DNA of 64,000 nt from contig JAFQZM010000040.1 of assembly GCA_017405875.1 (NCBI GenBank), positions 1 to 64,000 of the forward strand. Reading direction: 5' to 3'. Numbering within the stretch: the first letter of the stretch is position 1; every line of letters begins with the position of its first letter. A program made the position numbers and the translations under genes. Under the pieces are notes generated by a model. That model worked only from the letters and a program-made list of their open reading frames with translations. It made no database searches and was not told where the DNA came from. Source of the DNA: a bacterium (GTDB taxonomy: Bacteria > UBP6 > UBA1177). This document shows positions 11,167 to 29,369 of the stretch, piece by piece.

Positions 11167-11194
11167 TTGAATTTTCATGCGGTTCGTGTATAAA
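11167..11194 (+). promoter_or_regulatory. promoter of the tandem outer-membrane gene array
   Basis: TTGAAT (11167-11172), 16 bp, TATAAA (11189-11194), about 48 bp ahead of the first array gene. It is the only promoter-like sequence I could see ahead of the array. The following genes are too tightly packed to hold obvious promoters between them. Confidence 0.5.
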
Positions 11195-11241
11195 AACTAT
11201 GCCGTTGAGATTGTTGGATAAAGAGAAGTTCGGAGGTTTTC

Positions 11242-11898
11242 ATGAAAAAAATCATATTGTTTTTTGTGATGTTTTTATTTTTAGGAATTCTCTCCGCGCA
11301 GGAAGCTCAGAACGAACCGGCTCCCAGTCAGAGCGATATCATCGTCATGCATGAAACGACCCTGGACGGCGGCGAAGCTGCTCCGGAAGAGGCTGAGGCA
11401 AATCAGGAAAGTGAAGCGCAGAACGCTCCTAAGAAAGAGGAAAAACCCGATAAATTCTTTTTTCTTCCCACTATCGGCGCGGGAAGCGGTTACGGAGTAT
11501 TCAACGTCAATGCCGGTTTTTGGATGAATTTGCTGGTCAACCGCACGAAAAGCGGAAACAACACTTATCTGGGTATTAAGACCCATGTCGGATATACGCC
11601 GCTGGATCTTGGCTATAATTTAATAATGTTTCCCATCGAACTCAATGCTCTTATCGATTTCAAAGTCGAAAACGAAGTTCTTGCTTACCTCGGCTGGTGG
11701 TTTTCTGCCGGAATCGGCTTGAGCTGGGAGCTGGAACGCTACTATTACGATGAAGACGAGAATGAATTTTTTAAAAATATGGCGTGGGGAACAGGTTTGA
11801 GTCTCCTTTTTAAAAACAGAGTCACGTTTATTGCCGGAATAAACGGAAATCCGCGCAGATATTTTGATGTAAATTTTGCTGTCGGATACAGATTCTAA
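11242..11898 (+). CDS. array copy 1, outer-membrane beta-barrel-type protein
   Basis: 218 residues; first gene behind the array promoter, with CGGAGG upstream of the ATG. The signal peptide is MKKIILFFVMFLFLGILSA, cleaved before Gln. An acidic linker rich in Glu and Ala runs to about residue 68; its stretch NQESEAQNAPKKEE is almost the same as one in copy 3, also at DNA level. The barrel domain opens with KFFFLPTIGAGSG, includes NTYLGIKTHVGY and AWGTGLSLLFKNRV, and closes FAVGYRF. No catalytic motif is present. An outer-membrane location is inferred from the architecture. Confidence 0.9.
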   Translation: MKKIILFFVMFLFLGILSAQEAQNEPAPSQSDIIVMHETTLDGGEAAPEEAEANQESEAQNAPKKEEKPDKFFFLPTIGAGSGYGVFNVNAGFWMNLLVNRTKSGNNTYLGIKTHVGYTPLDLGYNLIMFPIELNALIDFKVENEVLAYLGWWFSAGIGLSWELERYYYDEDENEFFKNMAWGTGLSLLFKNRVTFIAGINGNPRRYFDVNFAVGYRF

Positions 11899-11916
11899 GG
11901 ATTTAAGGAGGCTTTC

Positions 11917-12477
11917 GTGAAAAAATATATGTTGTTTTTTGCAGTTCTTCTGCTTTCCGGCATTCTGGTCGCGGAGGAAGCCCTGTCAGAAAATTCAAAA
12001 GACGAGTTCTCCGCTTATTACGACAGGTTTTTCGTGCAGCCGACCGCCGGAATCGGAATAATTTACTTCGATATCGACATAAATGTGGCGCTAGATGTGC
12101 TTGTCAAGCGTTTTGACAGCGGTCACGGCATTTATGTCGGGGCTGAAGGCGGTTTCAGATATATGCCGGACCTCGATTACGGAGCATACGATGTAGAGCC
12201 TGTAACGGAATTCCCTGTCATGGGAAACATTGTTTTCGATTTTAAAACGAAAAACGGACTTCCGGAATATGCATCGCTCTGGCTTGCGTTCGGATACAGC
12301 CGGATGCTGATCGTTCCTGATCCTGCGGAAAGCGGGGAAAAAAGCTGGCGCAACAGTATGTCGTGGGGAATCGGAACGGCTTTGACATTTAAAAACAGAC
12401 TTGTTCTTAAAATGGGTGTAAACGGTATCAGTGTTATCGTTCCGACGCTGACTGTCGCCATTGGTTACCGTTTTTAA
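11917..12477 (+). CDS. array copy 2, outer-membrane beta-barrel-type protein (GTG start)
   Basis: 186 residues, the shortest intact copy. It begins with GTG at 11917 after a strong AAGGAGG; no ATG fits. The signal peptide ends ILVA before Glu-Glu. The linker is only about 20 residues, so the barrel segment (FFVQPTAGIGIIYF) starts close to the cleavage site. Family marks are GIYVGAEGGFRY, NIVFDFKTKN, SLWLAFGYS, SWGIGTALTFKN and the ending VAIGYRF. It shows that the long acidic linker is dispensable in the family. Confidence 0.88.
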   Translation: MKKYMLFFAVLLLSGILVAEEALSENSKDEFSAYYDRFFVQPTAGIGIIYFDIDINVALDVLVKRFDSGHGIYVGAEGGFRYMPDLDYGAYDVEPVTEFPVMGNIVFDFKTKNGLPEYASLWLAFGYSRMLIVPDPAESGEKSWRNSMSWGIGTALTFKNRLVLKMGVNGISVIVPTLTVAIGYRF

Positions 12478-12488
12478 GGGAGGTTGAT

Positions 12489-13328
12489 ATGAAAAAATTA
12501 TTTTTGTTTTTTGTGATTTTTATGCTGTCCGGCGTTATTTCGGCGCAGGAAGCTCAGAACGAACCTGCTGCTGAAGAGAGTGAACCGGCAGCTGCGGCAG
12601 AAGAGGCCAGAGAAGAGGGCGAAGCTGCTCCGGCAGGGGCAGAAGCTGCTGAAAATCAGGAAAGTGAAGCGCAGAACACTCTTAAGGAAGAGGAAAAAAC
12701 GCCCGAAACAGCGGAAAAACCTGCTGAACCCGAGCCGAAAGAGACAAAAAAAGAAACTCCTGCTCCTGCGGAAACGGCGAAGGAAGAACCAGCTCAGCCT
12801 GAAGCAGCGCCGCAACCGGCATCCGAACCTGTCATTAAAGAGGAAAAACCTTCGAAAATGTTCTACAATCCTTCTGCCGGTCTCGGAATAGGCGCTTCAA
12901 TATTCAGCTTCAGAATCAACAACGATTTCGATTTTCTTCTGAAGCACACTGATGGCGGCACCGATGTCTACCTCGGGCTTGAAATCGACTTCAGATACAG
13001 CCCTTATATCGACGATCATTCCATTTACGAGATTCCTATCCAGCTGAATTTCCTTTTCGATTTTCCGCTGAGCAACAAGAATGTCAAACGCCTTTCACTG
13101 TGGTTCTCGGGCGGTATCGATCTCGCTATAGGTTATCTTTCCTACTATGATTACGATGACGACTATGATGATGACGGCAAAGACCGCGACTCGCGATTCA
13201 AGCTTATGGCGGCATGGGGCATGGGGGTGAGTATGCTCTTTCATAACGATGTCACTTTGAAACTCGGTTTCGACAGTTTCTACGGCAAATATCCCGACCT
13301 GGTCTGTGTGGCAGGTTACAGGTTCTAA
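12489..13328 (+). CDS. array copy 3, outer-membrane beta-barrel-type protein with longest linker
   Basis: 279 residues, the longest copy, with GGGAGG before the ATG. After the signal peptide (ending GVISA, then QEAQNEPA as in copy 1) comes about 105 residues almost wholly of Ala, Glu, Pro and Lys, resembling the extended periplasmic spacers of TonB-like proteins. The barrel domain opens FYNPSAGLGIGA and contains DVYLGLEIDFRY, a very acidic loop (YYDYDDDYDDD) likely to be extracellular, MAAWGMGVSMLFHN and the ending VAGYRF. The alternation of codons for Glu, Ala and Pro makes the linker DNA repetitive and prone to length change. Confidence 0.9.
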   Translation: MKKLFLFFVIFMLSGVISAQEAQNEPAAEESEPAAAAEEAREEGEAAPAGAEAAENQESEAQNTLKEEEKTPETAEKPAEPEPKETKKETPAPAETAKEEPAQPEAAPQPASEPVIKEEKPSKMFYNPSAGLGIGASIFSFRINNDFDFLLKHTDGGTDVYLGLEIDFRYSPYIDDHSIYEIPIQLNFLFDFPLSNKNVKRLSLWFSGGIDLAIGYLSYYDYDDDYDDDGKDRDSRFKLMAAWGMGVSMLFHNDVTLKLGFDSFYGKYPDLVCVAGYRF

Positions 13329-13337
13329 AGGATCTTT

Positions 13338-13991
13338 ATGAAAAAACCGCTTCTCTTTTTTACACTCTTTTTCTTTTTCGTTTTTTTGAGTGCGGAAGAA
13401 GTGCAAGTCGGCGAATACGAAATAGAAGATGTCACGGTCACGCTGTTTGAAGAGAGAGAAGCGGTGCCTGAACCTGAAAAAGTTTCCGAAGAGGAGCGGG
13501 AAGTTGAAGCTAAAGAAGAGCCGGAATGGTTCTATGTCCAGCCCGCTTTGGGAATTGAAACGGGCAGAGTGTTTTTTGCGACAGTCATAAATCTGGATAT
13601 AGATTTTCTTGTCGGCCGGACGAAAAGGAAGAACAACATATATCTCGGTTTTGATTTGGGAATGACAACTACTCCGATTGATCATTTCTACGCCGTTCCG
13701 ATTCAGGCGAACATCAGTTTTGATTTCAAACAGAAAGATCCGAACCTGAATTTTGTGAGCCTCTGGATGTCGCTCGGAATCAATTTAAATTTCTGGTCAT
13801 ACAGAGAACATTCAGGCTGGATGGGGGTTTCGACCGCATGGAGAACCGGTCTCGACATTGTTTTTGTGAAGGATGTCGTGATAAGAGTCGGTCTTGACAA
13901 ATCTCCGTGGGCTCTGCTGGACAAATACAATAGCGGTAATGTCCGCGGATTGTATCTGAGTTTTATGGTTGCTGTGGGTTATAGGTTTTAG
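13338..13991 (+). CDS. array copy 4, outer-membrane beta-barrel-type protein
   Basis: 217 residues; AAAGGAT precedes the ATG. The leader carries a diverged form of the module shared by many copies: VQVGEYEIEDVTVTLFEE in place of the common VKTGEYDFGDITVTLFEE. The barrel belongs to the subfamily of copies 6 and 19, sharing NLDIDFLV, RKNNIYLG, IQAN, FDFKQKDPNLN, WMSLG and a late phrase RGLYLS before VAVGYRF. With copy 5 it forms a two-gene unit that recurs as copies 6-7 and 19-20. Confidence 0.9.
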   Translation: MKKPLLFFTLFFFFVFLSAEEVQVGEYEIEDVTVTLFEEREAVPEPEKVSEEEREVEAKEEPEWFYVQPALGIETGRVFFATVINLDIDFLVGRTKRKNNIYLGFDLGMTTTPIDHFYAVPIQANISFDFKQKDPNLNFVSLWMSLGINLNFWSYREHSGWMGVSTAWRTGLDIVFVKDVVIRVGLDKSPWALLDKYNSGNVRGLYLSFMVAVGYRF

Positions 13992-14000
13992 GGGAGTGTT

Positions 14001-14591
14001 ATGAAAAAAATCGTGATATTTTTGATAATGTTCCTCTTTTCTTTTGTCGTGACGGCGCAGACTGCGGAAAATGAGACTGCAACCGGCTTAAGCAGCGGTT
14101 CATCCGCATCGGAAGGCGGTGTCTCTGAAGCTGAAGAGGCTCCTTCAAAGTTTTATGTCCAGCCCGCTTTGGGAGTAGGAACAGGGATGTCCATTTTCCG
14201 GACCAATGCGGCTCTGGATATAGATTTTCTCCTGAAACAGTCGAAGAACGCCCGCGGTTACATGGGGTTTGATATTGATTTAAGATACATGACTATAGTC
14301 TGGGACGGCGATGTCGAACTCGCTTTGCAGCTGAATGCCGTCATCGATGTCAACGTGACCGATCCCCGCATGAAATCGGTTAGTTTCTGGGGCTCTGCGG
14401 GACTTCTCCTCTATTTTGATAAAGATGACGATGATTATAAAAGCTGGGGCGGTTATTCTTTGGTTCTGCGTCCGGCATGGGGATTCGGGACCGATCTTGT
14501 CTTCAGAAACGGAATGATACTTAAAATCGGCATAGACGGATTTCAAGGAAAATATCCCGATCTGACTCTTGCAGTCGGCTACCGTTTTTAG
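14001..14591 (+). CDS. array copy 5, outer-membrane beta-barrel-type protein
   Basis: 196 residues, nine bases after copy 4, with GGGGAG before the ATG. The signal peptide ends VVTA before Gln. The linker is short and Ser/Gly/Glu-rich. The barrel opens KFYVQPALGVGTG and matches copies 7 and 20 (ALDIDFLLK, DLRYMT, ELALQLNAVIDV, LKPAWGFGTDLVF-like, GKYPDLT, AVGYRF). A poly-Asp loop (KDDDDYK) sits at a probable surface turn. It is the second member of the recurring two-gene unit. Confidence 0.9.
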   Translation: MKKIVIFLIMFLFSFVVTAQTAENETATGLSSGSSASEGGVSEAEEAPSKFYVQPALGVGTGMSIFRTNAALDIDFLLKQSKNARGYMGFDIDLRYMTIVWDGDVELALQLNAVIDVNVTDPRMKSVSFWGSAGLLLYFDKDDDDYKSWGGYSLVLRPAWGFGTDLVFRNGMILKIGIDGFQGKYPDLTLAVGYRF

Positions 14592-14600
14592 GGGCTTTTG

Positions 14601-15236
14601 ATGAAGAAACTGCTTCTCTTTCTCACAGTTTTTCTCTTTTTCGGATTTTTGATTGCGGAAGATGTGAAAACGGGCGAATACGATTTCGGCGATATCACGG
14701 TCACGCTGTTTGAAGAAAGGGAACCTGAGCCGGAGCCGGAGAAAGCTGAAGAAGCTGAGCCTGAAACTAAGGAAAAAACTAAGTTCTTCTATGTCCAGCC
14801 GGTTCTCGGTATAGAATTAGGCAATATAGCTTTCGGTACTCTCTTCAATTTGGATATTGATTTTCTCGTTGCTCAAACCAAAAGGAAAAACAATATTTAT
14901 CTTGGTCTGGATTTAGGAATGACAGGAGCCCCTTACTATCGGTTTATTACTGTTCCGCTTCAGGCAAATATCACTTTCGATTTCAAGCAGAAAGATCCGA
15001 ATCTTAATTATGTAAGTTTGTGGATGTCGATTGGAGCGGCCTTCAACTTTTGGGTGTATAGAGATTATTCGGGATGGAAAGGCACTGCTGTTGCATGGAG
15101 AACGGGTTTGAGCATGATTTTTGTCAACGACATGGTGATAAAGATCGGGCTTGACAGACTGCCTGTGGAAAAGGACGTACACAATCTCCGCGGATTGTAT
15201 CTGAGTCTTATAATTGCTTTGGGTTACAGGTTTTAG
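14601..15236 (+). CDS. array copy 6, outer-membrane beta-barrel-type protein
   Basis: 211 residues. The ATG at 14601 is preferred over a TTG one codon earlier because it sits six bases after AGGGG, which overlaps the stop codon of copy 5. The first 39 codons (signal peptide plus EYDFGDITVTLFEE module) differ from those of copy 8 at a single base out of 117. A Glu/Pro linker (EPEPEPEKAEEAEPE) follows. The barrel is of the copy 4/19 subfamily, with KRKNNIYLGLDLGM, FDFKQKDPNLNYVSLWMS and EKDVHNLRGLYLS before ALGYRF. Confidence 0.9.
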   Translation: MKKLLLFLTVFLFFGFLIAEDVKTGEYDFGDITVTLFEEREPEPEPEKAEEAEPETKEKTKFFYVQPVLGIELGNIAFGTLFNLDIDFLVAQTKRKNNIYLGLDLGMTGAPYYRFITVPLQANITFDFKQKDPNLNYVSLWMSIGAAFNFWVYRDYSGWKGTAVAWRTGLSMIFVNDMVIKIGLDRLPVEKDVHNLRGLYLSLIIALGYRF

Positions 15237-15245
15237 AGGGATGTT

Positions 15246-15833
15246 ATGAAAAAAATCGCGATATTTTTGATAATGTTCCTCTTTTTCAGTGTTGTCATGG
15301 CGGAACCTGTGTCGAATGAAGTGAAAACGGCTGAAAGCGGCGGCTCTGAAACTGCGGCAGAAACCGAAGATGCTCCAAAAAAATTTTATATCCAGCCGGC
15401 TTTGGGAGTTGGAACAGGCTTTTCCCTTTTACGTACGACTGCCGCTTTGGATATCGATTTCCTTTTAAAGCGTTTCGACAGCAGCGATATAAATCTCTAT
15501 ACGGGTTTTGATTTTGATTTCAGATATATGACTGTTTTTTGGTGGAACATCATTGAACTGGCTTTGCAGGCAAATGTGGTTGTAGATATAGATTTGAAGA
15601 ATCAGCCGCATTTGAAATCGGTGAGTGTATGGGCTTCGCTCGGACTTCTGCTGCTTTTCGATAAGGATGAGGTCGATGAATATTATTGGAGCGATTATTT
15701 TTTGGTTTTGAAGCCCGCTTGGGGATTCGGAACCGATCTCGTTTTTAAAAACGGGATGGTGTTGAAGCTCGGATTAGACGGATTTCTCGATAAATATCCC
15801 GATCTGACTGTCGCAGTAGGTTACCGTTTTTAG
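15246..15833 (+). CDS. array copy 7, outer-membrane beta-barrel-type protein, near twin of copy 20
   Basis: 195 residues. It differs from copy 20, 8.4 kb away, at about 16 residues (about 92 percent identity), and the differences are spread along the whole length. The signal peptide ends VVMA before Glu. The linker (VKTAESGGSETAAETED) is short. The barrel has FYIQPALGVGTGFSLL, ALDIDFLLKRFDSSD, a Trp-rich turn (FWWNIIELALQAN) and GKYPDLT-like ending (DKYPDLTVAVGYRF). Such high identity between distant copies indicates a recent duplication or gene conversion. Confidence 0.92.
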   Translation: MKKIAIFLIMFLFFSVVMAEPVSNEVKTAESGGSETAAETEDAPKKFYIQPALGVGTGFSLLRTTAALDIDFLLKRFDSSDINLYTGFDFDFRYMTVFWWNIIELALQANVVVDIDLKNQPHLKSVSVWASLGLLLLFDKDEVDEYYWSDYFLVLKPAWGFGTDLVFKNGMVLKLGLDGFLDKYPDLTVAVGYRF

Positions 15834-15842
15834 GTGCTTTTG

Positions 15843-16520
15843 ATGAAGAAACTGCTTCTCTTTCTCACAGTTTTTCTCTTTTTCGGATTTTTGATTGCGG
15901 AAGATGTGAAAACGGGCGAATACGATTTCGGCGATATCACGGTCACACTGTTTGAAGAAGAATCTCCAGAAGCTGAAAAGGCGCGGAAAGAAGCCGAGGA
16001 GAAAGAAAAACCTGTTCTGAACGAAGAAGGGAAAATCTGCTGCTGCAATATTTCTGATGAAAAGGCTTTCGAGCCGAAAAAATTTTATATCCAGCCGGCT
16101 ATCGGATCCGGCACCGGATTGTCTTTTTTCCGCTTTACGGCTGCTCTTGATGCGGATTTTCTTGTGGCACGCAGGGAAAAAATCAATTATTATGTCGGCT
16201 TGGATATTGATGCAAGGTTTTCATATTATATCGGGTCTGACCCTAGAGAAATAGCAGTTCAGGCGAATGTAGTTTTTGATTTCCTGCGGGACGATCCGAA
16301 TCTGAGAAGTGCAAGTCTCTGGATCTCGGCAGGAATAGATCTTATATTTATCAGAGACATGATAGACGGTGATTATGAAGACTATGTTTTCGAATATTCT
16401 CAGGCATGGGGGTTGGGAGTCGATATGGTTTTTAAAAACTATGTCGTTCTTAAACTGGGAATAGACGGTTTGGTAGGAATATGGCCGGATCTGACTATCG
16501 CAGTGGGTTACAGGTTCTGA
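15843..16520 (+). CDS. array copy 8, outer-membrane beta-barrel-type protein with CCC linker
   Basis: 225 residues; ATG at 15843 chosen because the frame extension upstream would use GTG inside the ribosome site (TAGGTG). The leader module is nearly identical to that of copy 6. The linker lacks the EP run and instead carries three adjacent cysteines (GKICCCNISDE), the first of three neighbouring copies with Cys motifs just ahead of the barrel. The barrel (FYIQPAIGSGTGLSFF, AALDADFLVARR) is closest to copy 15 and ends TIAVGYRF. Confidence 0.9.
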   Translation: MKKLLLFLTVFLFFGFLIAEDVKTGEYDFGDITVTLFEEESPEAEKARKEAEEKEKPVLNEEGKICCCNISDEKAFEPKKFYIQPAIGSGTGLSFFRFTAALDADFLVARREKINYYVGLDIDARFSYYIGSDPREIAVQANVVFDFLRDDPNLRSASLWISAGIDLIFIRDMIDGDYEDYVFEYSQAWGLGVDMVFKNYVVLKLGIDGLVGIWPDLTIAVGYRF

Positions 16521-16534
16521 TTATGCGGGGCGTG

Positions 16535-17164
16535 ATGAAAAAAATAATTCTTTTTTTCGCGGTATTTTTTCTTTTTTCGCTACTTGCAGCTGAAGAAATA
16601 TCCGCTGAAAATAAAGAAACTCAGGAATTGTCCGAAAATACGACTACCTGTCCCTGCAACGAATTTAAAAATTATAATAAAACAAAAAAATTCTACTTTG
16701 CACTGGTCCCGACATTTGAACTCCTTTGGACAATTTCAGCCGGAATGGATTTCGATTTACTTCTGAAACATACGGAAAAAGGGCACAATATATACATGGG
16801 ATTGAGTTTTACTCCCGGATATTCATTCTTTCAATACGGTTTTTTTAATGTCTTTGAACTTCCGTTTCAGGTGAACGCGGCTTTTGATTTCAAGCAGAAC
16901 AACTGCGTTGTAGATTATCTTTCTCTGCGGATCTCGGGCGGAATCAATCTGATTTTCGGGCAGCCCGAAACCAGTAATTATAGTGACGATGCAAGACGTT
17001 ACGGCGGGTTGAGCAGAATTGTGCCTGCCGCCGTGATAAATCTTGATCTGATATTCGTCAACAATATGATTTTCCGTGTGGGTTTGGATATGGCAAGTGA
17101 AACATCATCCTTCTATGGGGGCTGGATGCCGTTTCCGATGTTCGGGCTCGGCTACCGTTTTTAG
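16535..17164 (+). CDS. array copy 9, outer-membrane beta-barrel-type protein with CPC linker
   Basis: 209 residues. The ATG at 16535 follows GCGGGG; in-frame starts further up lie inside copy 8 and are rejected. The signal peptide (MKKIILFFAVFFLFSLLAA) is followed by a short linker with TTCPCNEF. The barrel is one of the most diverged (FYFALVPTFELLWTISAG), yet keeps NIYMGLSF, FELPFQVNAAFDFKQN, LSLRISGGINLIF and ends GLGYRF. An extra Cys occurs in the mid-barrel segment (NNCVVDYLS). Confidence 0.88.
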   Translation: MKKIILFFAVFFLFSLLAAEEISAENKETQELSENTTTCPCNEFKNYNKTKKFYFALVPTFELLWTISAGMDFDLLLKHTEKGHNIYMGLSFTPGYSFFQYGFFNVFELPFQVNAAFDFKQNNCVVDYLSLRISGGINLIFGQPETSNYSDDARRYGGLSRIVPAAVINLDLIFVNNMIFRVGLDMASETSSFYGGWMPFPMFGLGYRF

Positions 17165-17173
17165 GTGATTTTT

Positions 17174-17866
17174 ATGAAAAAATTCGCTCTCTTTTTCACA
17201 GTTTTTCTCTTTTTCGCTTTTCTGGCTGCGGAAGATGTGAAAACGGGCGAATACGATTTCGGCGATATCACGGTCACACTGTTTGAAGAAAGAGAGCCGG
17301 AACCGGAACCTGAACCGGAGCCGGAAAAAGAGCCTGAGAAAGAGGAAAATCAATCATGCGGCTGCGATGTTTCACGTGAACCAGACAAAAAACCGGAGAA
17401 ATTCTTTTTTCAGGCATCCGCAGGGGTTCTTACCGGCATCAATTTCAATCTGGCTGCCAATTTTGATTTCGGTTTTCTCGTTTTCCACTCTCCGGCAGGA
17501 AACAATCTCTATCTCGGTTTTGAGACCGATTTCAGATATGCTATGAAAAACTGGATGGTGGACGATCGCGATGACTACAATATTTTCGAAATTCCTTTTC
17601 AGGCGCATCTGACGGTCGACTTTAAAAACAAAAATCCGTTTGTTCCATACCTTTCGATGTGGTTTTCGCTCGGAGCGGAACTCTTGCTGGAAAGCGAAGC
17701 GGATAGTCCGCGGGACTCAAAGAAGTTCAAAGGTGCGAGAGCGGCTGTGGCATGGGGAACGGGGCTTAACCTCGTGCTTAAAAACGGCGTTGTTTTCAAA
17801 ACGGGGCTGGAGGGATATAAAGGAATGTATCCTGTCCTGCTTTTTGCTTTGGGTTACAGATTTTAG
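17174..17866 (+). CDS. array copy 10, outer-membrane beta-barrel-type protein with CGC linker
   Basis: 230 residues. The ATG at 17174 follows TTTTAGGTGATTTTT, in which the stop of copy 9 and the ribosome site overlap. The leader has the full EYDFGDITVTLFEE module and a long EPEPEPEPEPEKEPEK rod, then NQSCGCDVSRE, a third Cys motif. The barrel opens FFFQASAGVLTG and keeps NLYLGFETDFRY, FEIPFQAHLTVDFKNKN, MWFSLGAELLL, AWGTGLNLVLKN and ALGYRF. Confidence 0.9.
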   Translation: MKKFALFFTVFLFFAFLAAEDVKTGEYDFGDITVTLFEEREPEPEPEPEPEKEPEKEENQSCGCDVSREPDKKPEKFFFQASAGVLTGINFNLAANFDFGFLVFHSPAGNNLYLGFETDFRYAMKNWMVDDRDDYNIFEIPFQAHLTVDFKNKNPFVPYLSMWFSLGAELLLESEADSPRDSKKFKGARAAVAWGTGLNLVLKNGVVFKTGLEGYKGMYPVLLFALGYRF

Positions 17867-17883
17867 AGGTGTTCGGAGTTTTT

Positions 17884-18456
17884 ATGAGAAAAGTTCTCGT
17901 TTTTGCAGCGCTTATTTTTGTTTTCGGCACTTTTTTTGCGAAGAGCGGAACAGCTGAGACTAGTACTGCGGAACCTGATCTGTTCTATATCCAGCCTGTT
18001 TTGTCAGCCGGTGTGATTTTCGGCGGAGAGCGTTATGTTTCAGGCTCGTTCAATGCCTCGCTCAAGACGGAATTTCTCGTTTCAAAGCCTGACAGGATAA
18101 GTTCGATCTATGTCGGAGCCGATATCGGCTTCAAGTACAACAATTCATTTTATCAGACTTGGGATGTGCCGATACTTTTCAATGTCGCATTTGACTTCAT
18201 GACCGATTCCAAAGACGGAATTCCCGAGCATGTCGGCTTCTGGATAGCACTCGGGATGGCGTGCGGAAAATATGATGAGGATTCGGTTTTTGATTATGAT
18301 CCGGGCGATCCGGATGATCCTTATGTTCAGTTCGACTTTGCGTGGGCATTCGGTCTGGAGGTGAAATTCAGAAACCGCATCGTCGTTCAGCTTTCGGCGA
18401 GGAGTTTTGCTGTGGGCAAAGTGGCTCCGATGATCGGTATAGGTTACAGATTTTAG
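17884..18456 (+). CDS. array copy 11, outer-membrane beta-barrel-type protein
   Basis: 190 residues. The ATG at 17884 (MRKVLVFAALIFVFG) follows CGGAG; an earlier in-frame GTG would place that site inside the gene. The leader lacks the EYDFGD module and the linker is very short. The barrel (FYIQPVLSAGVIFGGERY) belongs with copies 13 and 17: it shares the GGE near the start, a Phe-Asp-Phe segment, FWIALG, and an acidic loop (FDYDPGDPDDPY). It ends GIGYRF. Confidence 0.88.
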   Translation: MRKVLVFAALIFVFGTFFAKSGTAETSTAEPDLFYIQPVLSAGVIFGGERYVSGSFNASLKTEFLVSKPDRISSIYVGADIGFKYNNSFYQTWDVPILFNVAFDFMTDSKDGIPEHVGFWIALGMACGKYDEDSVFDYDPGDPDDPYVQFDFAWAFGLEVKFRNRIVVQLSARSFAVGKVAPMIGIGYRF

Positions 18457-18468
18457 GCGGAGAGTTTT

Positions 18469-19041: not shown

Positions 19042-19050
19042 GTGTTTTTG

Positions 19051-19746
19051 ATGAAAAAACTGCTTCTCTTTTTCACAGCTTTTCTCTTTTTCGGATTTCT
19101 AATAGCGGAAGATGTGAAAACGGGCGAATACGATTTCGGCGATATCACGGTCACACTGTTTGAAGAGAGGGAACCTGAACCGAAACCGGAACCGGAAAAA
19201 GAAGCTGAAAAAGAGCCGGAACCTGAGCCGGAAAGTCCGCTTGAAAATAAAGTGAAAGAACCGAAACCGTTTTATATCCAGCCTATGGTCGTTGTCGGAA
19301 TTTCTTACGGGGGAGAAGACGACAGGCTCTACGAAGTTGTCGATACGAATGCCGATCTCGCTTTTCATCTCGCAGAGACAAGTCGGGGAGACAATATTTA
19401 TCTTGGATTTAATTTGGGAGTAAGATACTCAGGTTCGCTTTTCCGTACTGTCGAAATACCGGTTCAGTCTAAACTTGCTTTTGATTTCAAAAGAAATTCG
19501 CCTTACGGAACTCCTGAATATGTAAGTTTTTGGCTTGCTCTGGGGCTCAGCGCAGGACTTTATGATTCAGCCTATGTTTTTCCGTTTGATCCAAGTGAAG
19601 AGGTAAGTCCGGAGTGGGATATGATCTTTTCGTGGGGAATAGGGACCGATCTCTCTTTTGAGAACGGGTTCATTTTGCAGTTCGCTATAAAAAGTTTCAT
19701 TTATTTGTATCCTGTCCCGTCTTTTGGTTTGGGGTGCAGGTTTTAG
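19051..19746 (+). CDS. array copy 13, outer-membrane beta-barrel-type protein ending GCRF
   Basis: 231 residues. ATG at 19051 follows TTTTTAGGTGTTTTTG. The full EYDFGDITVTLFEE module and a Glu/Pro/Lys rod (EPKPEPEKEAEKEPEPEPE) precede FYIQPMVVVGISYGGEDD. The barrel pairs with copy 17 (YGGEDD or RGGEDD, RTVEIPVQSKLAFDF, TPEYVSFWLALG, SWGIGTDLSFENG). It is the only copy whose last residues are GCRF instead of GYRF, explained by one base (TGC for TAC). The terminal Phe is kept, so outer-membrane assembly may still work. Confidence 0.9.
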   Translation: MKKLLLFFTAFLFFGFLIAEDVKTGEYDFGDITVTLFEEREPEPKPEPEKEAEKEPEPEPESPLENKVKEPKPFYIQPMVVVGISYGGEDDRLYEVVDTNADLAFHLAETSRGDNIYLGFNLGVRYSGSLFRTVEIPVQSKLAFDFKRNSPYGTPEYVSFWLALGLSAGLYDSAYVFPFDPSEEVSPEWDMIFSWGIGTDLSFENGFILQFAIKSFIYLYPVPSFGLGCRF

Positions 19747-19755
19747 GGGAAATTT

Positions 19756-20370
19756 ATGAAAAAAAAGGTCGTGTTTTTCGTGATCATGCTTGTTTTAGGG
19801 CTTTTGAGCGCTGAAGAAATGCAGAAAGAGACGCCTTCTCCCGATACGAAAACCACAACCGAGGAAAAAAACGATGAGAAACCGAAATTTTTCTATATTC
19901 AGCCTGCTTTAGGCTTGTCTTCCGGATTCATGGGGGTTTCCGTCATGGCAGATATAGATGCCGGATTCCTTGTCAAACACACCGGAAAAGGAATAAACAT
20001 TTATCTGGGGCTTGATTTTGATTTCAGATACAGCCAGCGGCCGGGTATATTCGAAGAAGAGGACATTGAAAACATTCTGGAATTTCCGATACAGGCAAAT
20101 CTTACTATTGATTTTAAAAACAGAAACAGGCTTGCACCGCATATTGCGTTTATTTCTGTCTGGGGTTCTCTCGGAGTAAATCTTTTCATTGAACAGGAAT
20201 TTAACTGGCATAGTTACAATTATGAATACACCGGAGGACTTAGAGAAGGAGTGGCCTGGGGCACGGGTTTCAGCATCCTTTTTAAAAGCAATATGGTCTT
20301 CAAAACGGGAATATCGGCGTTTCGCGGGCGTTATCCGCAGGTTTTCCTGCTGATCGGTTACCGTTTTTAG
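19756..20370 (+). CDS. array copy 14, outer-membrane beta-barrel-type protein
   Basis: 204 residues; TAGGGGA overlaps the stop of copy 13 and serves the ATG. The signal peptide (MKKKVVFFVIMLVLGLLSA) is unlike the common leader, and the linker is Thr/Lys/Glu-rich without EP repeats. The barrel (FFYIQPALGLSSGFMGV) has NIYLGLDFDFRY, ILEFPIQANLTIDFKN, SVWGSLGVNLF and AWGTGFSILFKSN, ending LIGYRF. Its ILEFPIQAN segment is the best guide for restoring the frame of copy 16. Confidence 0.9.
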   Translation: MKKKVVFFVIMLVLGLLSAEEMQKETPSPDTKTTTEEKNDEKPKFFYIQPALGLSSGFMGVSVMADIDAGFLVKHTGKGINIYLGLDFDFRYSQRPGIFEEEDIENILEFPIQANLTIDFKNRNRLAPHIAFISVWGSLGVNLFIEQEFNWHSYNYEYTGGLREGVAWGTGFSILFKSNMVFKTGISAFRGRYPQVFLLIGYRF

Positions 20371-20379
20371 GTGCTTTTT

Positions 20380-21075
20380 ATGAAAAAATTCGCTCTCTTT
20401 TTCACAGTTTTTCTTATTTTCGGATTTTTGATTGCGGAAGATGTGAAAACGGGCGAATACGATTTCGGTGATATCACGGTCACACTGTTTGAAGAAAGGG
20501 AACCTGAACCTGAAAAAGAGCCGGAACCTGAACCGGAGAAAGAACCTGAACCTGCGGAATCCGCACCTGAAACGGCTGAAATGGCTGATTTAAACAAGTC
20601 TTTACGAGAGAATCATGTAAAACCGAAGTTTTTCTATATCCAGCCCGCTTTGGGATTCGGCACCGGAATCTCGGGATATCGTGTTACTGCTGCTTTGGAT
20701 GCCGGTTTTCTGGTGGGAAGTACCGAAGTTGCCAATTTTTATATCGGATTAGATTTTGATTTCAGAGCTGGAATGGTGGATTTGATTTTGAAGGATTCGA
20801 AAGAGTTCGCTATTCAGGCTAACGGGGTTTTTGATTTTGCGGTTGTCAATCCGGAACTTAAAAATGTAGATATCTGGATGTCGCTGGGATTTGATCTGAT
20901 TTACGGCGGTATATATCATGAAGAGGAGTTTCAAGAGTCGACTTTTATATATATGCCGGCATGGGGAATAGGACTCGATTTTGTATTTACAAACAATATC
21001 ATTTTGAAAGTAGGAATAGACGGCTTTCTGGGAATGATTCCCGATTTGACGCTGCTTGTTGGTTACAGGTTCTGA
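20380..21075 (+). CDS. array copy 15, outer-membrane beta-barrel-type protein
   Basis: 231 residues. ATG at 20380 follows TTTTTAGGTGCTTTTT. The 71 bases from 20353 (end of copy 14, gap and signal peptide) are identical to those from 21652 before copy 17. The EYDFGDITVTLFEE module and an EP rod precede a linker with a basic patch, then FFYIQPALGFGTGISGY. The barrel is nearest to copy 8 (AALDAGFLV, FAIQANGVFDF, IWMSLGFDLI, AWGIGLDFVFTNN, LLVGYRF). Confidence 0.9.
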   Translation: MKKFALFFTVFLIFGFLIAEDVKTGEYDFGDITVTLFEEREPEPEKEPEPEPEKEPEPAESAPETAEMADLNKSLRENHVKPKFFYIQPALGFGTGISGYRVTAALDAGFLVGSTEVANFYIGLDFDFRAGMVDLILKDSKEFAIQANGVFDFAVVNPELKNVDIWMSLGFDLIYGGIYHEEEFQESTFIYMPAWGIGLDFVFTNNIILKVGIDGFLGMIPDLTLLVGYRF

Positions 21076-21091
21076 CGGTGCGGAGAAAAGT

Positions 21092-21669
21092 ATGAGAAAA
21101 ATTCTTTTTTTAATTTTATTTTTTCTCTTTTCAACGCTCTCGGCTGAAGTTGCGACGGATAAAAATGAACCCGTCAAAGCACCGAAGTTTTTCTATTTTG
21201 AGCCGGCTATCGGAATAAAAACCGGTCTTCCTAATCCTTTGGGCGCTGTTGTTGATATGAATTTTGATTTTCTTGTCCACAGCACAGAAACAATGCACAA
21301 CATTTATTTGGGTCTTGACCTCGGTTCCAGATACAATTATTGGGAAATGTATGAGGATGATACTGATGATAATGATAAAAAAATGTTCTGGAGCTCTTGA
21401 TAAAAGCGAATGCTGCCTTTGATTTCAAACGGCCCGGTCCTTATGTCGATTACCTGACTTTACGGCTTTCTGCCGGTCCGGACTTGATATGGTGGCAAAA
21501 ATATTGGCCCAACAGAGGGGAAGAGGAAAAGAAATTTTTCAAAGTTTCTGCAACATGGGAAATAGAACTCGATCTTGTGTTCAAAAACAATGTTGTTCTA
21601 AAATTTGCTTTTGATTCTGTCGCAGGAATTTACCCCGATCCTGTAATAGGCATCGGTTACCGTTTTTAG
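21092..21669 (+). pseudogene. array copy 16, frameshifted at a seven-A tract
   Basis: The ATG at 21092 has GCGGAG upstream. The first frame encodes a signal peptide and FFYFEPAIGIKTG, NIYLGLDLGSRYNY, then stops at 21398-21400. The other half of the barrel continues in the -1 frame (VLELLIKANAAFDFK to GIGYRF at 21669). The two frames meet at AAAAAAA (21377-21383): one added A would give an unbroken protein of about 192 residues with VLELLIKAN in place of the family phrase FEIPIQAN. The cause may be a true mutation, a phase-variable tract, slippage during expression, or an assembly error in a homopolymer. Confidence 0.8.
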
Positions 21670-21678
21670 GTGCTTTTT

Positions 21679-22308
21679 ATGAAAAAATTCGCTCTCTTTT
21701 TCACAGTTTTTCTTATTTTCGGCTTTTTGATCGCGGAAGATGTTCAGAAAGAACCTGTTTCAGTAGAAAATGAAATCAAAACCGAATCTGAAGCACGACA
21801 GAAAAAAGAAAAACAACCGAAGTTTTTTCATATTCAGCCTATGGTGGAAGCTGGAATCGGCAGAGGCGGAGAAGATGATATAATTTACGGATTTTTTTCT
21901 ACGAATATCGATTTTAGTTTTCTTGTTGCGAATATAAAACGCAGACACAATATCTATGTAGGGTTCGGTTTCGGCGTAAAATATGCCCATTCGTTGTATA
22001 AAACCGTCGAAATACCGGTTCAATCCAAAATAGTCTTCGATTTTAAGACAAATACCCCTTACAAAATCCCGGAATATGCGAGTTTGTGGTTTGCACTGGG
22101 CGGCGGAGTCGGACGTTATGATATTGACTATATTATCGCTGCTGTTTCCGGCGGGAAGGAACTGGATCCTGAGTGGACTGCGGCCGTTATTACATGGGGA
22201 GTCGGAACGGATCTTACTTTTGAAAACGGGCTGGTTTTGCAAATAGCCGTGGAAAGCTTTTTTGTTATTGGTCTGATGCCGACAATCGGTTTGGGATACA
22301 GGTTTTAG
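21679..22308 (+). CDS. array copy 17, outer-membrane beta-barrel-type protein with hybrid leader
   Basis: 209 residues. ATG at 21679 lies in the 71-base segment shared with copy 15. The signal peptide is the common FALFFTVFLIFGFLIAEDV, but the EYDFGDITVTLFEE module and EP rod that normally follow are absent; a plain Lys/Glu linker (QKEPVSVENEIKTESEA) comes next. This looks like a recombination joint just after AEDV. The barrel (FFHIQPMVEAGIGRGGEDD) is of the copy 11/13 subfamily and ends GLGYRF. Confidence 0.9.
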   Translation: MKKFALFFTVFLIFGFLIAEDVQKEPVSVENEIKTESEARQKKEKQPKFFHIQPMVEAGIGRGGEDDIIYGFFSTNIDFSFLVANIKRRHNIYVGFGFGVKYAHSLYKTVEIPVQSKIVFDFKTNTPYKIPEYASLWFALGGGVGRYDIDYIIAAVSGGKELDPEWTAAVITWGVGTDLTFENGLVLQIAVESFFVIGLMPTIGLGYRF

Positions 22309-22317
22309 GAGCTTTTT

Positions 22318-22980
22318 ATGAGAAAATCCCTGCTGTTTCTGATAATTTTTCTTCTGCTGTTTAATTTGACTGGCGAAGAAGTTATGAAGAATGAAGAGGG
22401 AAATTCTTTGCAAAACAGTTCGGAAATACAGCCTGAAAGCGGGCAGAAAAAAGAAGGACTGAAAAAAATCTATATCCAGCCGGCATTGGGAATGGAGTGG
22501 GCTATATTGGCCAATGTTGCGCCTAAATTCAGTTTTGATGCGGAATTCCTGTTGAAAAATACGAATGTTTACCTTGGATTCGACATGAATCTGATTTATT
22601 TCCCAGGTAGTTTTGCGGGCGACTGGAATTTTGCAGGAGACTGGAGTGCGCCTGTTCATTTCAATGTTGTTTTCGCTTTTCTCCCATATAACGAACCGTC
22701 TCCGCTTAAATCACTGGAACTGTTTCTTGCAGGGGGAGTGGATTTTTCCTTTTTGCAGCATAAGGATTCAAACGATAACGCTAAAGGAGCCTTTTATCAC
22801 TATACATACTACAAAAGCGAGGAAAGACCTCTTGATGATTATAAAATTTTTGCTGTTTTTCCATCATTTAATATCGGCATGAACTTCTTGTTTGAATACA
22901 ATATTGTTCTTGAAATCGGCATTGACTACACTTTATTCTATTATTTGGGACTTTACACAAGTCTCGGTTACCGTTTTTAG
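22318..22980 (+). CDS. array copy 18, outer-membrane beta-barrel-type protein
   Basis: 220 residues; TTTTAGGAG combines the stop of copy 17 and the ribosome site. The signal peptide is MRKSLLFLIIFLLLFNLTG. The linker (QNSSEIQPESGQKKEG) is short. The barrel opens IYIQPALGMEW and is strongly diverged, with NVYLGFDMNLIYF, GDWNFAGDWS (a small repeat), VHFNVVFAF, LFLAGGVDFSF and SLGYRF at the end. A long loop around residues 155-180 is rich in Tyr, Lys and Asp. Confidence 0.88.
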   Translation: MRKSLLFLIIFLLLFNLTGEEVMKNEEGNSLQNSSEIQPESGQKKEGLKKIYIQPALGMEWAILANVAPKFSFDAEFLLKNTNVYLGFDMNLIYFPGSFAGDWNFAGDWSAPVHFNVVFAFLPYNEPSPLKSLELFLAGGVDFSFLQHKDSNDNAKGAFYHYTYYKSEERPLDDYKIFAVFPSFNIGMNFLFEYNIVLEIGIDYTLFYYLGLYTSLGYRF

Positions 22981-22989
22981 GTGATTTTT

Positions 22990-23655
22990 ATGAAAAAATT
23001 CGCTCTCTTTTTCACATTTTTTCTCTTTTTCGGATTTTTGAGCGCGGAAGAAGTGAAAACGGGCGAATACGATTTCGGCGATATCACGGTCACGCTATTT
23101 GAAGAAAGGGAACCTGAACCGAAACCGGAACCAGAACCTGAACCGGAAAAAGAGCCGGAGCCTAAGCCTGCGGAACCCGCGCCGGAAATCAAGGGAAAAC
23201 CGAAGTTTTTCTATATCCAGCCGGTTTTAGGTACGGAATTTGGCAGCATGATGCTTTTCGGAGCAATGGTTAATTTGGATATCGATTTTCTTGTCGCCGA
23301 AACGAAAAGAAAAAACAATATATACCTCGGTGTCGATTTGGGAGCGGTATTCGCACCTGAGCATTTTTGGGGAATTCCGCTTCAGGCGAATATCACTTTC
23401 GATTTCAAACAGAAAGATCCCAGGCTGAATTATGTGAGTCTATGGATGTCGCTCGGAGCGAATTTCTGTTTCGAGATATGGAGAGATTCTTCGGAACGGT
23501 ATGTTGCGGTTGCATGGAGAACCGGTCTGAGCATTGTTTTTGTGAATAACATGGTGATAAAAATAGGGCTTGACAGAGTTCCGCGGGAAAAAGACGTACA
23601 CAATCTCCGAGGATTATATTTGAGTCTTATGATTGCCCTGGGATACAGGTTTTAG
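22990..23655 (+). CDS. array copy 19, outer-membrane beta-barrel-type protein
   Basis: 221 residues; ATG at 22990 after TTTTTAGGTGATTTTT. It has the EYDFGDITVTLFEE module and a rod EPKPEPEPEPEKEPEPKP. The barrel is a close relative of copy 6: NLDIDFLVAETKRKNNIYLG, IPLQANITFDFKQKDP, YVSLWMSLGA, AWRTGLSIVFVNNMVIKIG and EKDVHNLRGLYLS are the same or nearly so. With copy 20 it forms the third occurrence of the two-gene unit. Confidence 0.9.
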   Translation: MKKFALFFTFFLFFGFLSAEEVKTGEYDFGDITVTLFEEREPEPKPEPEPEPEKEPEPKPAEPAPEIKGKPKFFYIQPVLGTEFGSMMLFGAMVNLDIDFLVAETKRKNNIYLGVDLGAVFAPEHFWGIPLQANITFDFKQKDPRLNYVSLWMSLGANFCFEIWRDSSERYVAVAWRTGLSIVFVNNMVIKIGLDRVPREKDVHNLRGLYLSLMIALGYRF

Positions 23656-23664
23656 AGGAGTGTT

Positions 23665-24252
23665 ATGAAAAAAATCACGGTATTTTTAATAATATTCCTC
23701 TTTTTCAGTGTCATCATGGCGGAATCCGTGTCGAATGAATTGAAAACGGCTGAAAGCGGCGGATCTGAAACTGTGGCTGAAACTGAAGATGCCCCGAAAA
23801 AATTTTATATACAGCCGGCTTTGGGAGTTGGAACAGGCTTTTCCCTTTTACGTACGACTGCCGCTTTGGATATCGATTTCCTTTTAAAGCGTTTCGATAG
23901 CAGCGATGTAAATCTCTATACGGGTTTTGATTTTGATTTCAGATATATGACTGCTGCTTGGTGGAACATCATTGAACTGGCTTTGCAGGCAAATGCGGTT
24001 GTGGATATAGATTTGAAGAATCAGCCGCATTTGAAATCGGTGAGTGTATGGGCTTCGCTCGGACTTCTGCTGCTTTTCGATAAGGATGAATTTGATGAAG
24101 ATTATTGGAGCGATTATTTTTTGGTTCTGCGTCCAGCGTGGGGAATCGGAACCGATCTCGTTTTTAAAAACGGGATGGTGTTGAAGCTCGGATTAGACGG
24201 ATTTCTCGGTAAATATCCCGATCTGACTGTCGCAGTAGGTTACCGCTTTTAA
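23665..24252 (+). CDS. array copy 20, outer-membrane beta-barrel-type protein, near twin of copy 7
   Basis: 195 residues; TTTTAGAGGAG overlaps the stop of copy 19. About 179 of 195 residues match copy 7, including KTAESGGSET, FYIQPALGVGTGFSLL, LKRFDSSD and NQPHLKSVSVWASLG. It ends the unbroken part of the array. The next 150 bp hold a 32-bp tandem repeat rather than another copy. Confidence 0.92.
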   Translation: MKKITVFLIIFLFFSVIMAESVSNELKTAESGGSETVAETEDAPKKFYIQPALGVGTGFSLLRTTAALDIDFLLKRFDSSDVNLYTGFDFDFRYMTAAWWNIIELALQANAVVDIDLKNQPHLKSVSVWASLGLLLLFDKDEFDEDYWSDYFLVLRPAWGIGTDLVFKNGMVLKLGLDGFLGKYPDLTVAVGYRF

Positions 24253-24378
24253 AACTCGCTCATCTTTTGTGAAATTTTCTTGAAAAGTCGCTCGTTTTTT
24301 GCTGAATTTTCTTGAAAACTCGCTCATTTTTTTGTAAATTTTCTTGAAAACTCGCTCGTTTTTTTGTGATTTAAATGG
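24251..24378. repeat. four-unit 32-bp tandem repeat
   Basis: AAAACTCGCTC or AAAAGTCGCTC recurs at 24251, 24283, 24315 and 24347, exactly 32 bases apart, each followed by a T-rich stretch and GAAATTTTCTTG or similar. The last unit decays after the T-run. The repeat begins at the stop codon of copy 20 and ends 25 bp before the ATPase gene. There are no spacers, so it is not a CRISPR. It may mark where the array was opened. Confidence 0.8.
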
Positions 24379-24403
24379 AAAGTTACTGTAAAACAGGTGT
24401 GTT

Positions 24404-25756
24404 ATGAAAAATTTAAATTATGTCAAAAGAAAAGCTGATGATTTTCTTGCCTCATGGAAAAAGGATCCGCAAAGAAAACCGCTGATCGTGAAAGGGGCGA
24501 GACAGGTCGGCAAAACAGAAACCGTTCTCCATTTCGCAAAGCAGAATTACAAAAATGTCGTCTATATCAATTTCGTTACCGATGAAAAGTTCAAATTGAT
24601 AACCCGTGACGGCTATGAACCTGAAAATATTGTAAAAAATATAACTCTGATCGACCAGACAAAAAAGTTTGTGCCTGAAAAAACGCTTATCATTTTTGAC
24701 GAGCTTCAGGAGTTCCCGGATATTGCGACTTCTCTTAAATTTTTCAATCTCGACGGGCGTTTCGACGTAATATGCTTAGGTTCGCTTCTCGGCGTAAACT
24801 ATCGGAGAATCGAGAGCAACAGCGTGGGCTACAAAACCGATTTTGAGATGTCTTCTCTCGATTTTGAGGAATTTCTTCAAGCGAAAGGTTATGAGAACGC
24901 TGCTGACGAAATGCTTGCCAAAATGAAAGGCATAACTCCTTTTTCGGAAGTCGAAATGTCAGTTTTCAATAATCTTTTCAATGATTTCTGCGTAATTGGC
25001 GGAATGCCTGCGATAGTCTCTGCTTACTTGAAAAACGGAAATTTCAACGGTGTGCTTGAAATGCAGAAACAGCTGATCCTTGATTACAAAGAAGACGCGA
25101 AGAAGTATGCCGAAGGTCTGGACAAAGCGCGGATAATCCATGTTCTTGACCACATTCCGGCCCAGCTTGCGAAAGAAAATAAAAAATTCCAGATTTCGAA
25201 AGTTGCACCCGGTGCAAGGTTCAAGGACTACTGGGGCTGCATCGAATGGCTGCGTGATGCAGGTATTGTCAATGTCTGCTACTGCCTGAACTTTCCGGAG
25301 CTTCCGCTGAAAGGGAATTACGACGAATCGAAATATAAACTTTATTTTTTCGACACAGGCCTTCTCCTTGCGGGGCTTGACGAAGACGCACAGGATGACT
25401 TTCGTGTCAACGGAAATTTCGGTGTCTACGGCGGTGCACTTTACGAAAACATAGCGGCAGAATCGCTGAAAAAGCAGGGTTTCGAGCTTTATTACTACAA
25501 ACGTGAGGATTCGACTCTTGAAGAGGATTTCTTTGTTCGGGCGAAGAATTTTCTGATTCCGGTCGAAGTCAAAGCGAAAAACAGAACCGCTAAATCACTG
25601 CGGACATTGCTTGAAAGCGAACGATACCCCGATATAACTTACGGAATAAAGTTTGTTCGCGGCAATGTCGGTTTCGCGGACAATATTTTTACTTTCCCTT
25701 ATTTTTGCTCTTTTCTGCTGAAACGATACATTAAGGAAGGAGGCTTTCCGAATTAA
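24404..25756 (+). CDS. AAA_14/DUF4143 family ATPase inserted in the array
   Basis: 450 residues. The N-terminal ATPase has Walker A GARQVGKT (about residues 31-38), Walker B TLIIFDELQE, and a sensor-like CLGSLLG. The C-terminal DUF4143 part contains LYFFDTGLLLAGL and a PD-(D/E)xK-like strand IPVEVKAKNRTAKSLR. Members are widespread, often present in many copies per genome, and their function is mostly unknown; a nuclease-like fold has been suggested. AGGTG precedes the ATG. It lies between array copies 20 and 21, in the same direction and without a visible terminator, so it may be co-transcribed with them. Confidence 0.9.
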   Translation: MKNLNYVKRKADDFLASWKKDPQRKPLIVKGARQVGKTETVLHFAKQNYKNVVYINFVTDEKFKLITRDGYEPENIVKNITLIDQTKKFVPEKTLIIFDELQEFPDIATSLKFFNLDGRFDVICLGSLLGVNYRRIESNSVGYKTDFEMSSLDFEEFLQAKGYENAADEMLAKMKGITPFSEVEMSVFNNLFNDFCVIGGMPAIVSAYLKNGNFNGVLEMQKQLILDYKEDAKKYAEGLDKARIIHVLDHIPAQLAKENKKFQISKVAPGARFKDYWGCIEWLRDAGIVNVCYCLNFPELPLKGNYDESKYKLYFFDTGLLLAGLDEDAQDDFRVNGNFGVYGGALYENIAAESLKKQGFELYYYKREDSTLEEDFFVRAKNFLIPVEVKAKNRTAKSLRTLLESERYPDITYGIKFVRGNVGFADNIFTFPYFCSFLLKRYIKEGGFPN

Positions 25757-25776
25757 AAGGTAGTTGCAGGTGATTT

Positions 25777-26451
25777 ATGAAAAAACTGCTTCTCTTTCTC
25801 ACAGTTTTTCTTTTTTTCGGCTTTCTGAGCGCGGAAGAAGTGAAAACGGGCGAATACGATTTCGGCGATATCACGGTCACGCTATTTGAAGAAAGGGAAC
25901 CCGAGCCTGAACCGGAACCAGAACCTGAACCGGAAAAAGAGGTGGAAGAAGTTGCGCCTGAAACCTATGAAAAACCGAAATTTTTCTATATCCAGCCTGC
26001 TGGGGAAATCGGTGCTGCTATGGGCGTCTTCTTTCCTCGGATTGGGGTTGCTTTAGACGCAGGGGTTCTTGTAGGAACGATACAGGATAAGACAAATGTT
26101 TACTTAGGGCTCGATTTTGATTTGAAACTTGTTCCTATTTTTTGGTCACATCCATGGCCAATTATTTCTTTTCCGGTTTTGGCCAGTACGGTTTTTGATA
26201 TTGCGTTGCAGAACCAGCCGGTACTAAAATCAATAAGCGTAAGATTTTCTTTTGGTGCAAATATGTGGCTTTCACGAATAGAATATAGCAGCAGCGACGA
26301 GATATATTCTGATCTTAAATTTTATGCAGATTATGGTTGGGGAACAGGATTTGATCTGGTATTTAAAAACAGTATGGTTTTTAAATTCAGCATAGAAGGA
26401 TATTGGATATATTTTCCCGATCTGCTTGTCGGTTTAGGTTACCGCTTTTAA
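25777..26451 (+). CDS. array copy 21, outer-membrane beta-barrel-type protein beyond the ATPase gene
   Basis: 224 residues, 20 bp after the ATPase gene, with GCAGGTG as ribosome site. It keeps the full common leader: signal peptide, EYDFGDITVTLFEE and a rod EPEPEPEPEPEKEVEE. At DNA level its module shares with copy 19 the variant CTATTTGAAGAAAGG. The barrel (FFYIQPAGEIGAAMG) has NVYLGLDFDLK, a Trp/Pro-rich loop (FWSHPWPIISF), YGWGTGFDLVFKN and ends GLGYRF. Its stop overlaps by four bases the stop of the convergent glycosylase gene. Confidence 0.9.
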   Translation: MKKLLLFLTVFLFFGFLSAEEVKTGEYDFGDITVTLFEEREPEPEPEPEPEPEKEVEEVAPETYEKPKFFYIQPAGEIGAAMGVFFPRIGVALDAGVLVGTIQDKTNVYLGLDFDLKLVPIFWSHPWPIISFPVLASTVFDIALQNQPVLKSISVRFSFGANMWLSRIEYSSSDEIYSDLKFYADYGWGTGFDLVFKNSMVFKFSIEGYWIYFPDLLVGLGYRF

Positions 26452-29181: not shown

Positions 29182-29294
29182 AACATTTCTCCTTAAAAAA
29201 CGATAAAACAACCGAAAAAACTCTAAACTATCGGTTTTATTTGTCAAATTTAAACATTCGTATGTTCGGGGAGCGCCACTGAAGGGCAAAAAAA

Positions 29295-29369
29295 TGGCGA
29301 CCTTTGGGGGACTCGAACCCCCGTTACCGGCGTGAAAGGCCGATGTCCTAACCACTAGACGAAAAGGTC
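29295..29369 (-). tRNA. tRNA-Glu (anticodon TTC)
   Basis: Minus strand: acceptor GACCTTT pairs with AAAGGTC, discriminator G, encoded CCA. The anticodon loop in CGGCCTTTCACGCCG gives TTC. Twenty bases separate it from tRNA-Lys. Confidence 0.95.

Follow-up and report, generated by a model that had tools for sequence, protein, structure and literature searches.

Organization of the locus

The stretch of DNA considered here (the window; 64,000 nucleotides from a bacterium of the lineage UBP6) contains, at positions 11242-26451, 21 paralogous genes lying head to tail, all on the + strand, which confirms the 21-gene tandem array described in an earlier note on this DNA. Twenty of the 21 copies are intact. 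The exception, copy 16 (21092-21669), carries a frameshift close to a run of A, which may be a genuine lesion or an error of sequencing. The intact copies match an array profile, built from the window's own copies, with E-values of 1e-44 to 1e-78, and a search with one copy as query also recovers nearly all copies, so chance is excluded as an explanation of the array. Copies 20 and 21 are set apart by 1,524 bp containing a gene for a DUF4143/AAA_14 ATPase, which the earlier note, taking the array to be uninterrupted, had overlooked; thus, the layout is 20 copies, the ATPase gene and one further copy. The gaps of 0-20 bp that had been reported hold for all other spacers (9-18 nt, the majority exactly 9) but not for this one. 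A signal-peptide-like stretch opens every intact copy, as had been claimed, and the claim that each copy ends in GYRF holds for the C-terminus of all copies but one, the copy at 19051 ending in GCRF.

The encoded proteins are predicted to be barrels (see below), and clustering of these barrels at 62% identity gave 35 array families, which are designated by letters. The genome of the window is referred to as G000, and related genomes by further numbers in the same series. The features of the locus are as follows.

11167-11195, +, promoter-like array motif TTGAATTTT-N13-TATAAAA, conserved upstream of the array in relatives
11242-11898, +, barrel gene 1, family Y, only in G000; eight strands predicted by AlphaFold
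11917-12477, +, barrel gene 2, family Z, only in G000; start GTG
12489-13328, +, barrel gene 3, founder family A; long Ala/Glu/Pro linker
13338-14591, +, module B-C, copy 1 (genes 13338-13991 and 14001-14591); B-C adjacency in 7 genomes
14594-14704, +, example of a module-boundary junction (spacer and leader); 111 bp identical to 15836-15946
14601-15833, +, module B-C, copy 2 (genes 14601-15236 and 15246-15833); B barrel at dS 0.01 to G009
15843-17164, +, module H-P (genes 15843-16520 and 16535-17164)
17174-19041, +, module I-J-K (genes 17174-17866, 17884-18456 and 18469-19041); identical order in G004 and G006
19051-20370, +, module L-M (genes 19051-19746 and 19756-20370)
20380-21669, +, module of family a (20380-21075) with a frameshifted barrel gene (pseudogene 21092-21669)
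21679-22980, +, module D-E (genes 21679-22308 and 22318-22980), common to G013, G001 and G006; eight strands predicted by AlphaFold for E
22990-24252, +, module B-C, copy 3 (genes 22990-23655 and 23665-24252)
24253-24350, +, boundary element, left part (32-bp repeats); 88% identity to the element of G013
24404-25756, +, DUF4143/AAA_14 ATPase gene, of a dispersed family
25759-25776, +, boundary element, right end GGTAGTTGCAGGTGATTT, adjoining the start of the last barrel gene
25777-26451, +, last barrel gene, family b; intact only in G000, with a deleted remnant in G014

The promoter-like motif also lies directly 5′ of the array in six further congeneric genomes and, with a single mismatch, in G004; all 11 of its exact matches in the window and loci L056-L073 are upstream of array genes. 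It is repeated within a 244-bp element that occurs at module borders of G013, G001 and G006 (twice). Both ends of this element flank the ATPase gene in the window, as the remains of an internal promoter element: on the left there is a tandem repeat of period 32 (24251-24369), and the 18 nt on the right also terminate the element in G013 and G001. Of the one visible promoter reported earlier, the single complete site at 11167-11195 stands, but relatives hold internal copies and the window retains internal remains. As the genes are tightly spaced, the array is probably co-transcribed. The ATPase family is dispersed (14 matches in G000, 3-15 in relatives); thus, the inserted gene is probably a passenger, and may be a mobile one. 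It is 81% identical to a copy located elsewhere in G014.

Elsewhere in the window are genes for a 728-residue protein with VWA and laminin-G-like domains (6142-8328), which has only partial likeness in related genomes; a putative esterase lipoprotein with DTDTDADTD-type repeats (27952-29355), present as two adjacent copies in several relatives; and a 1271-residue protein with guanylate cyclase, AAA_16 and TPR domains (52924-56739).

Predicted structure of the array proteins

The AlphaFold model of copy 1 comprises a signal helix, an acidic linker modelled with low confidence, and eight strands, mostly at pLDDT near 97. For copy E, which is very different in sequence, eight strands are likewise predicted; the 8-strand barrel expected in the earlier note is therefore predicted for both of these dissimilar members. 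In Foldseek the top matches are Ail, OmpX, the OmpA barrel, OprF and NspA, with E-values of 1e-5 to 1e-7 for Ail, OmpX and the OmpA barrel. These models support the assignment of the array proteins as 8-strand outer-membrane barrels of the OmpX/OmpA/Ail type, and the C-terminal YRF agrees with the usual last-strand signal of outer-membrane proteins.

The predicted fold is shared with these known barrels, but identity in the matches is only 11-16%, and the Pfam barrel families remain below their cut-offs (PF13505 at 13-14 bits, cut-off 28.7; PF13568 at 14.8 bits, cut-off 27). Nine copies scanned against Pfam and NCBIfam gave no family above cut-off, and a PDB sequence search gave no significant match. 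Furthermore, we know of no large arrays of OmpX/Ail/OmpA-type barrels. The predicted outward loops, most of which are short, are only moderately more variable than the strands (0.27 versus 0.18 differences per site), and their lengths are also more variable.

Distribution and copy number in related genomes

The comparison set comprised fourteen congeneric species, one genome each, all draft assemblies (with an estimated contamination of 6% in G013). The array profile has matches in all 14 species and array-type genes are present in 13, G002 having only a distant relative (family X). Array copy number, which the earlier note had proposed to compare among relatives, ranges from 1 to 21 across the congeneric species. 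Wherever both flanks are readable, the array occupies one chromosomal site, from a 5′-nucleotidase gene to MPG/adk, with 21 copies in G000, 18 in G013, 6 in G004, 4 in G012, and 3 each in G007 and G010; G006, whose flanks were also read, has 20 copies on two contigs joined via an exact 24-bp overlap. In G003 and G008 the founder family A is the sole array gene, with adk downstream and without the usual upstream neighbour; G009 has three copies, with MPG/adk downstream and different DNA upstream; in G001 the array is in pieces, with at least 12 copies; and in G014 the founder gene is at another place.

Outside the genus, three of the family's four other genomes have one or two distant matches each; the phylum sample of 28 genomes otherwise has none. 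A single-protein search identified two sister species, Tb.RUG.391 and RGIG7134 (water buffalo abomasum), both from ruminant gut samples; a Mycobacterium match in this search was spurious, being within a low-complexity stretch. One query against IMG/VR viral contigs and one against plasmids found no relative, which leaves carriage by phage or plasmid without support.

Modules and their order

The array is composed of modules with conserved inner order, and the order of the modules is permuted between species. Each module comprises a first gene and usually one or two later genes (1-3 genes in all), the starts of modules having been set by leader type rather than by order (for D, G and T, by the signal peptide alone). 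With module borders marked by a slash, the order in G000 is Y Z A / BC / BC / HP / IJK / LM / a (+ pseudogene) / DE / BC / b; in G013 it is A / Qc / BC / FR / SNO / DE / HP / LM / TU; and in G006 it is A / Hd / IJK / LM / e / FV / SNO / TU / DE / BC. Adjacent pairs were kept in 100 of 100 directed comparisons within modules, and in 16 of 52 across module borders. The spacers follow the same division: those within modules are common across species (e.g. GCGGAGAGTTTT between J and K in three genomes), and those at module borders are genome-specific, being nine nt in all seven readable borders of G000 and seven nt in six of seven borders of G006.

Module B-C is present three times in the window; the barrel DNA of two of its C genes, those at 15246 and 23665, is 95% identical. 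In G014 (L065, 7229-7665), a leader that comes after a boundary element is joined to an internal part of a family-b barrel; this is a deletion remnant and thus documents the loss of a module. In G001 (L059, 5307-5922), a module-first gene is frameshifted in the Pro/Glu repeat linker between leader and barrel.

Leaders and junctions

Module-first genes have similar signal-peptide DNA whatever barrel follows (mean identity 0.78-0.84), and the identity of their leaders is uncorrelated with that of their barrels (Mantel r 0.037; 513 of 2000 permutations as high). In later genes the leader tracks the barrel (Mantel r 0.824; 0 of 2000 permutations as high), with leader identities of 0.88 within and 0.55 between families. 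Leader and barrel are thus decoupled in module-first genes, a feature that, like the modules themselves, the earlier note overlooked. First-gene leaders are more alike within than between genomes (22/1000), although the excess is modest, and six module-first genes of G000 share an identical leader stretch of 32 nt.

A junction is made up of three parts: the final codons of the gene before it, a short spacer of mostly 7-9 nt, and the signal-peptide/linker leader with which the next module-first gene opens. The exact repeats of 40-111 bp in the G000 array all fall at junctions and leaders, the duplicated C gene excepted.

A conserved stretch, GEYxxxD[IV]T[IV]T-x-FEE, follows the signal peptide at 13410-13454 and is at the same place in other module-first genes. 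It faintly resembles a TonB box; the barrel is predicted to be plugless, with eight strands. A genus-wide search for GEYxxxD[IV]T[IV]T gave matches in array genes only.

Probable exchange of modules between species

Between G000 and G013, dS is 0.37-0.93 in five flanking genes and 0.20 in adk; the founder barrel is at 0.94, and eight module barrels are at 0.01-0.24. The medians are 0.08 for modules and 0.73 for flanking genes. Between G000 and G009, the B barrel is at dS 0.01 and five of six flanking genes are at 0.56-1.22, and between G000 and G001 the D, E, C and B barrels are at 0.04-0.21. Several of the barrels with low dS belong to genes whose leaders are at dS 0.5 to above 1. In module L-M of G000 and G013, sliding identity climbs to 97-100% where the linker ends and drops within the final codons of M; more generally, the identity profiles of shared modules break at these two places, the linker and the closing codons of the module. 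Recent movement does not, however, apply to all shared modules, since the median module dS between G000 and G006 (0.30) is near that of the flanking genes (0.40). A fixed, old set of orthologous copies, which the earlier note had regarded as incompatible with diversification, is found in part only: many copies are orthologous across species, yet they have been turned over and permuted.

The preferred reading, to which a probability of about 0.7 is given, is that the co-directional modular barrel array grows, shrinks and reshuffles by homologous recombination at the repeated junction, and that the surface repertoire is thereby renewed. DNA incoming from a sister species would recombine at two points, one within the leader or linker and one at the end of the module's last gene, and a foreign barrel would thereby come to lie in frame behind the resident export leader and would be read from the array promoter; recombination at the junction would also keep the leaders alike. 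The incoming DNA may arrive through natural uptake or by another route; homologues of ComEC and DprA are present, but as they are also present in most control genomes they lend weak support to uptake. The cell would then export a set of different 8-strand barrels together, renewed via exchange, and this repertoire would most likely face phages, predatory protists or competitors. The biological role is the weakest step that we infer, as phage, protist, competitor and substrate binding are indistinguishable from genomes.

A bolder form of this reading, tentative and at somewhat less than even odds, is that a genus-wide pool of barrel modules is swapped between species into one chromosomal docking array via a homogenised junction, without a dedicated recombinase. 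This could be seen as a homologous-recombination counterpart of the integron for surface proteins, in which barrels are fused in frame behind a resident leader.

Perhaps the recombination is real but the role differs, the barrels binding or taking up different gut substrates and their combinations being kept by diet or niche; this is rather unlikely. Each family keeps its sequence from species to species and hardly any copy is damaged, as would suit such a role, but eight-strand barrels of solved type are not known to have a wide pore. In the nearest known layout, that of Ehrlichia, P28 and OMP-1F are nutrient porins (PMC7789307), which speaks for substrates.

It is improbable that the array is an old vertical set, i.e., a large ancestral array with different losses in each species and with leaders kept alike through selection for export. 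Many barrel families are indeed common to several species, and the G000-G006 comparison (0.30 for modules, 0.40 for flanking genes) fits vertical descent; but in the G000-G013, G000-G001 and G000-G009 comparisons modules are at dS 0.01-0.28 and most flanking genes at 0.37-1.25. Furthermore, the leaders of later genes are unlike (mean identity 0.56 between families within one genome), so that export by itself does not call for a common leader, and in the module-first genes and at the borders it is also synonymous sites and spacers that are alike. The permuted module order also argues against descent of this kind.

Recombination between species is likewise favoured over an assembly artefact, in which metagenome assemblers would have fused DNA of different species wherever their junctions are identical. 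Repeats of 40-111 bp such as those at the junctions are a known hazard, every genome here is a draft, and G013 has its 6% contamination; but the shared modules differ, many at dS 0.07-0.25, unlike reads from one population, the pattern recurs in several genomes (including sister species of different animals), and identity climbs inside linker DNA that differs between genomes, which makes an artefact very improbable. Least credible is antigenic variation of the Opa or Msp2 kind, in which genes are switched on and off or a single expression site is rewritten by gene conversion, since, although the paralogous barrels share their 5′ part and one copy is frameshifted near an A run, every intact copy has its own signal peptide, coding repeats examined for slipped-strand switching are all in frame (periods 6, 12, 18 or 24), the array promoter has no inverted repeats of the kind sought for an invertible promoter, and the window has no 5′-truncated silent cassettes. 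The surface diversification suggested in the earlier note is therefore upheld at the evolutionary level (copy number, permuted modules, interspecies exchange), but not as opa/msp-style switching, against which it also speaks that 20 of the 21 copies are intact.

Comparison with known systems

The Opa proteins of Neisseria are 8-strand barrels with variable loops, diversified by recombination, and their genes are scattered and switched by CTCTT repeats. Here, by contrast, there is one array, and its coding repeats preserve the frame, so that no out-of-frame phase variation is seen.

The nearest layout is that of Ehrlichia P28/OMP-1, which also has many tandem paralogous genes for outer-membrane proteins at one conserved site, so the earlier statement that no described family has such a layout does not stand. 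The p28/omp-1 locus comprises 14-23 such genes at one site between fixed genes, with a copy number that varies by species and some other genes inside the locus (PMC7789307). The flanking genes are tr1 and secA in Ehrlichia, whereas here they are a 5′-nucleotidase-type gene and hisS on one side and MPG and adk on the other; no Pfam surface antigen family is above cut-off in the nine copies scanned here, and the array proteins are predicted 8-strand barrels with an acidic linker. In Ehrlichia, p28 and omp-1B each have their own promoter (PMC7971322), whereas the short spacers here imply that the array is probably one operon. Multi-gene modules with a common leader, which characterize the present array, are not described for P28/OMP-1 in the available parts of PMC7789307 and PMC7971322.

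The trw genes of Bartonella (trwL, trwJIH) are tandemly amplified surface genes in which a multi-gene unit is copied as a block, copy number varies by species and recombination between species occurs (PMC2883598). They are the nearest evolutionary analogue, in that blocks of neighbouring genes are kept or copied together and recombine between species, but this is a match of pattern and not homology: those genes encode a type IV secretion pilus, and these encode barrels. To our knowledge, decoupling of leader and barrel has no counterpart in Bartonella trw. The array belongs to neither Ehrlichia p28/omp-1 nor Bartonella trw, as the sequence family and the neighbours differ. Tandem arrays of outer-membrane proteins are already known; what is new here is the modules with a shared export leader, and the lineage.

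Such arrays are best known from tick-borne pathogens, and here one is found in a little-described lineage, some relatives of which live in the gut of ruminants; the related genomes allow the unit of exchange, its borders and the traffic between species to be read directly. The array thus offers a testable case of surface diversification in bacteria without known pathogenicity, in which arrays of 1 to 21 copies form a natural series.
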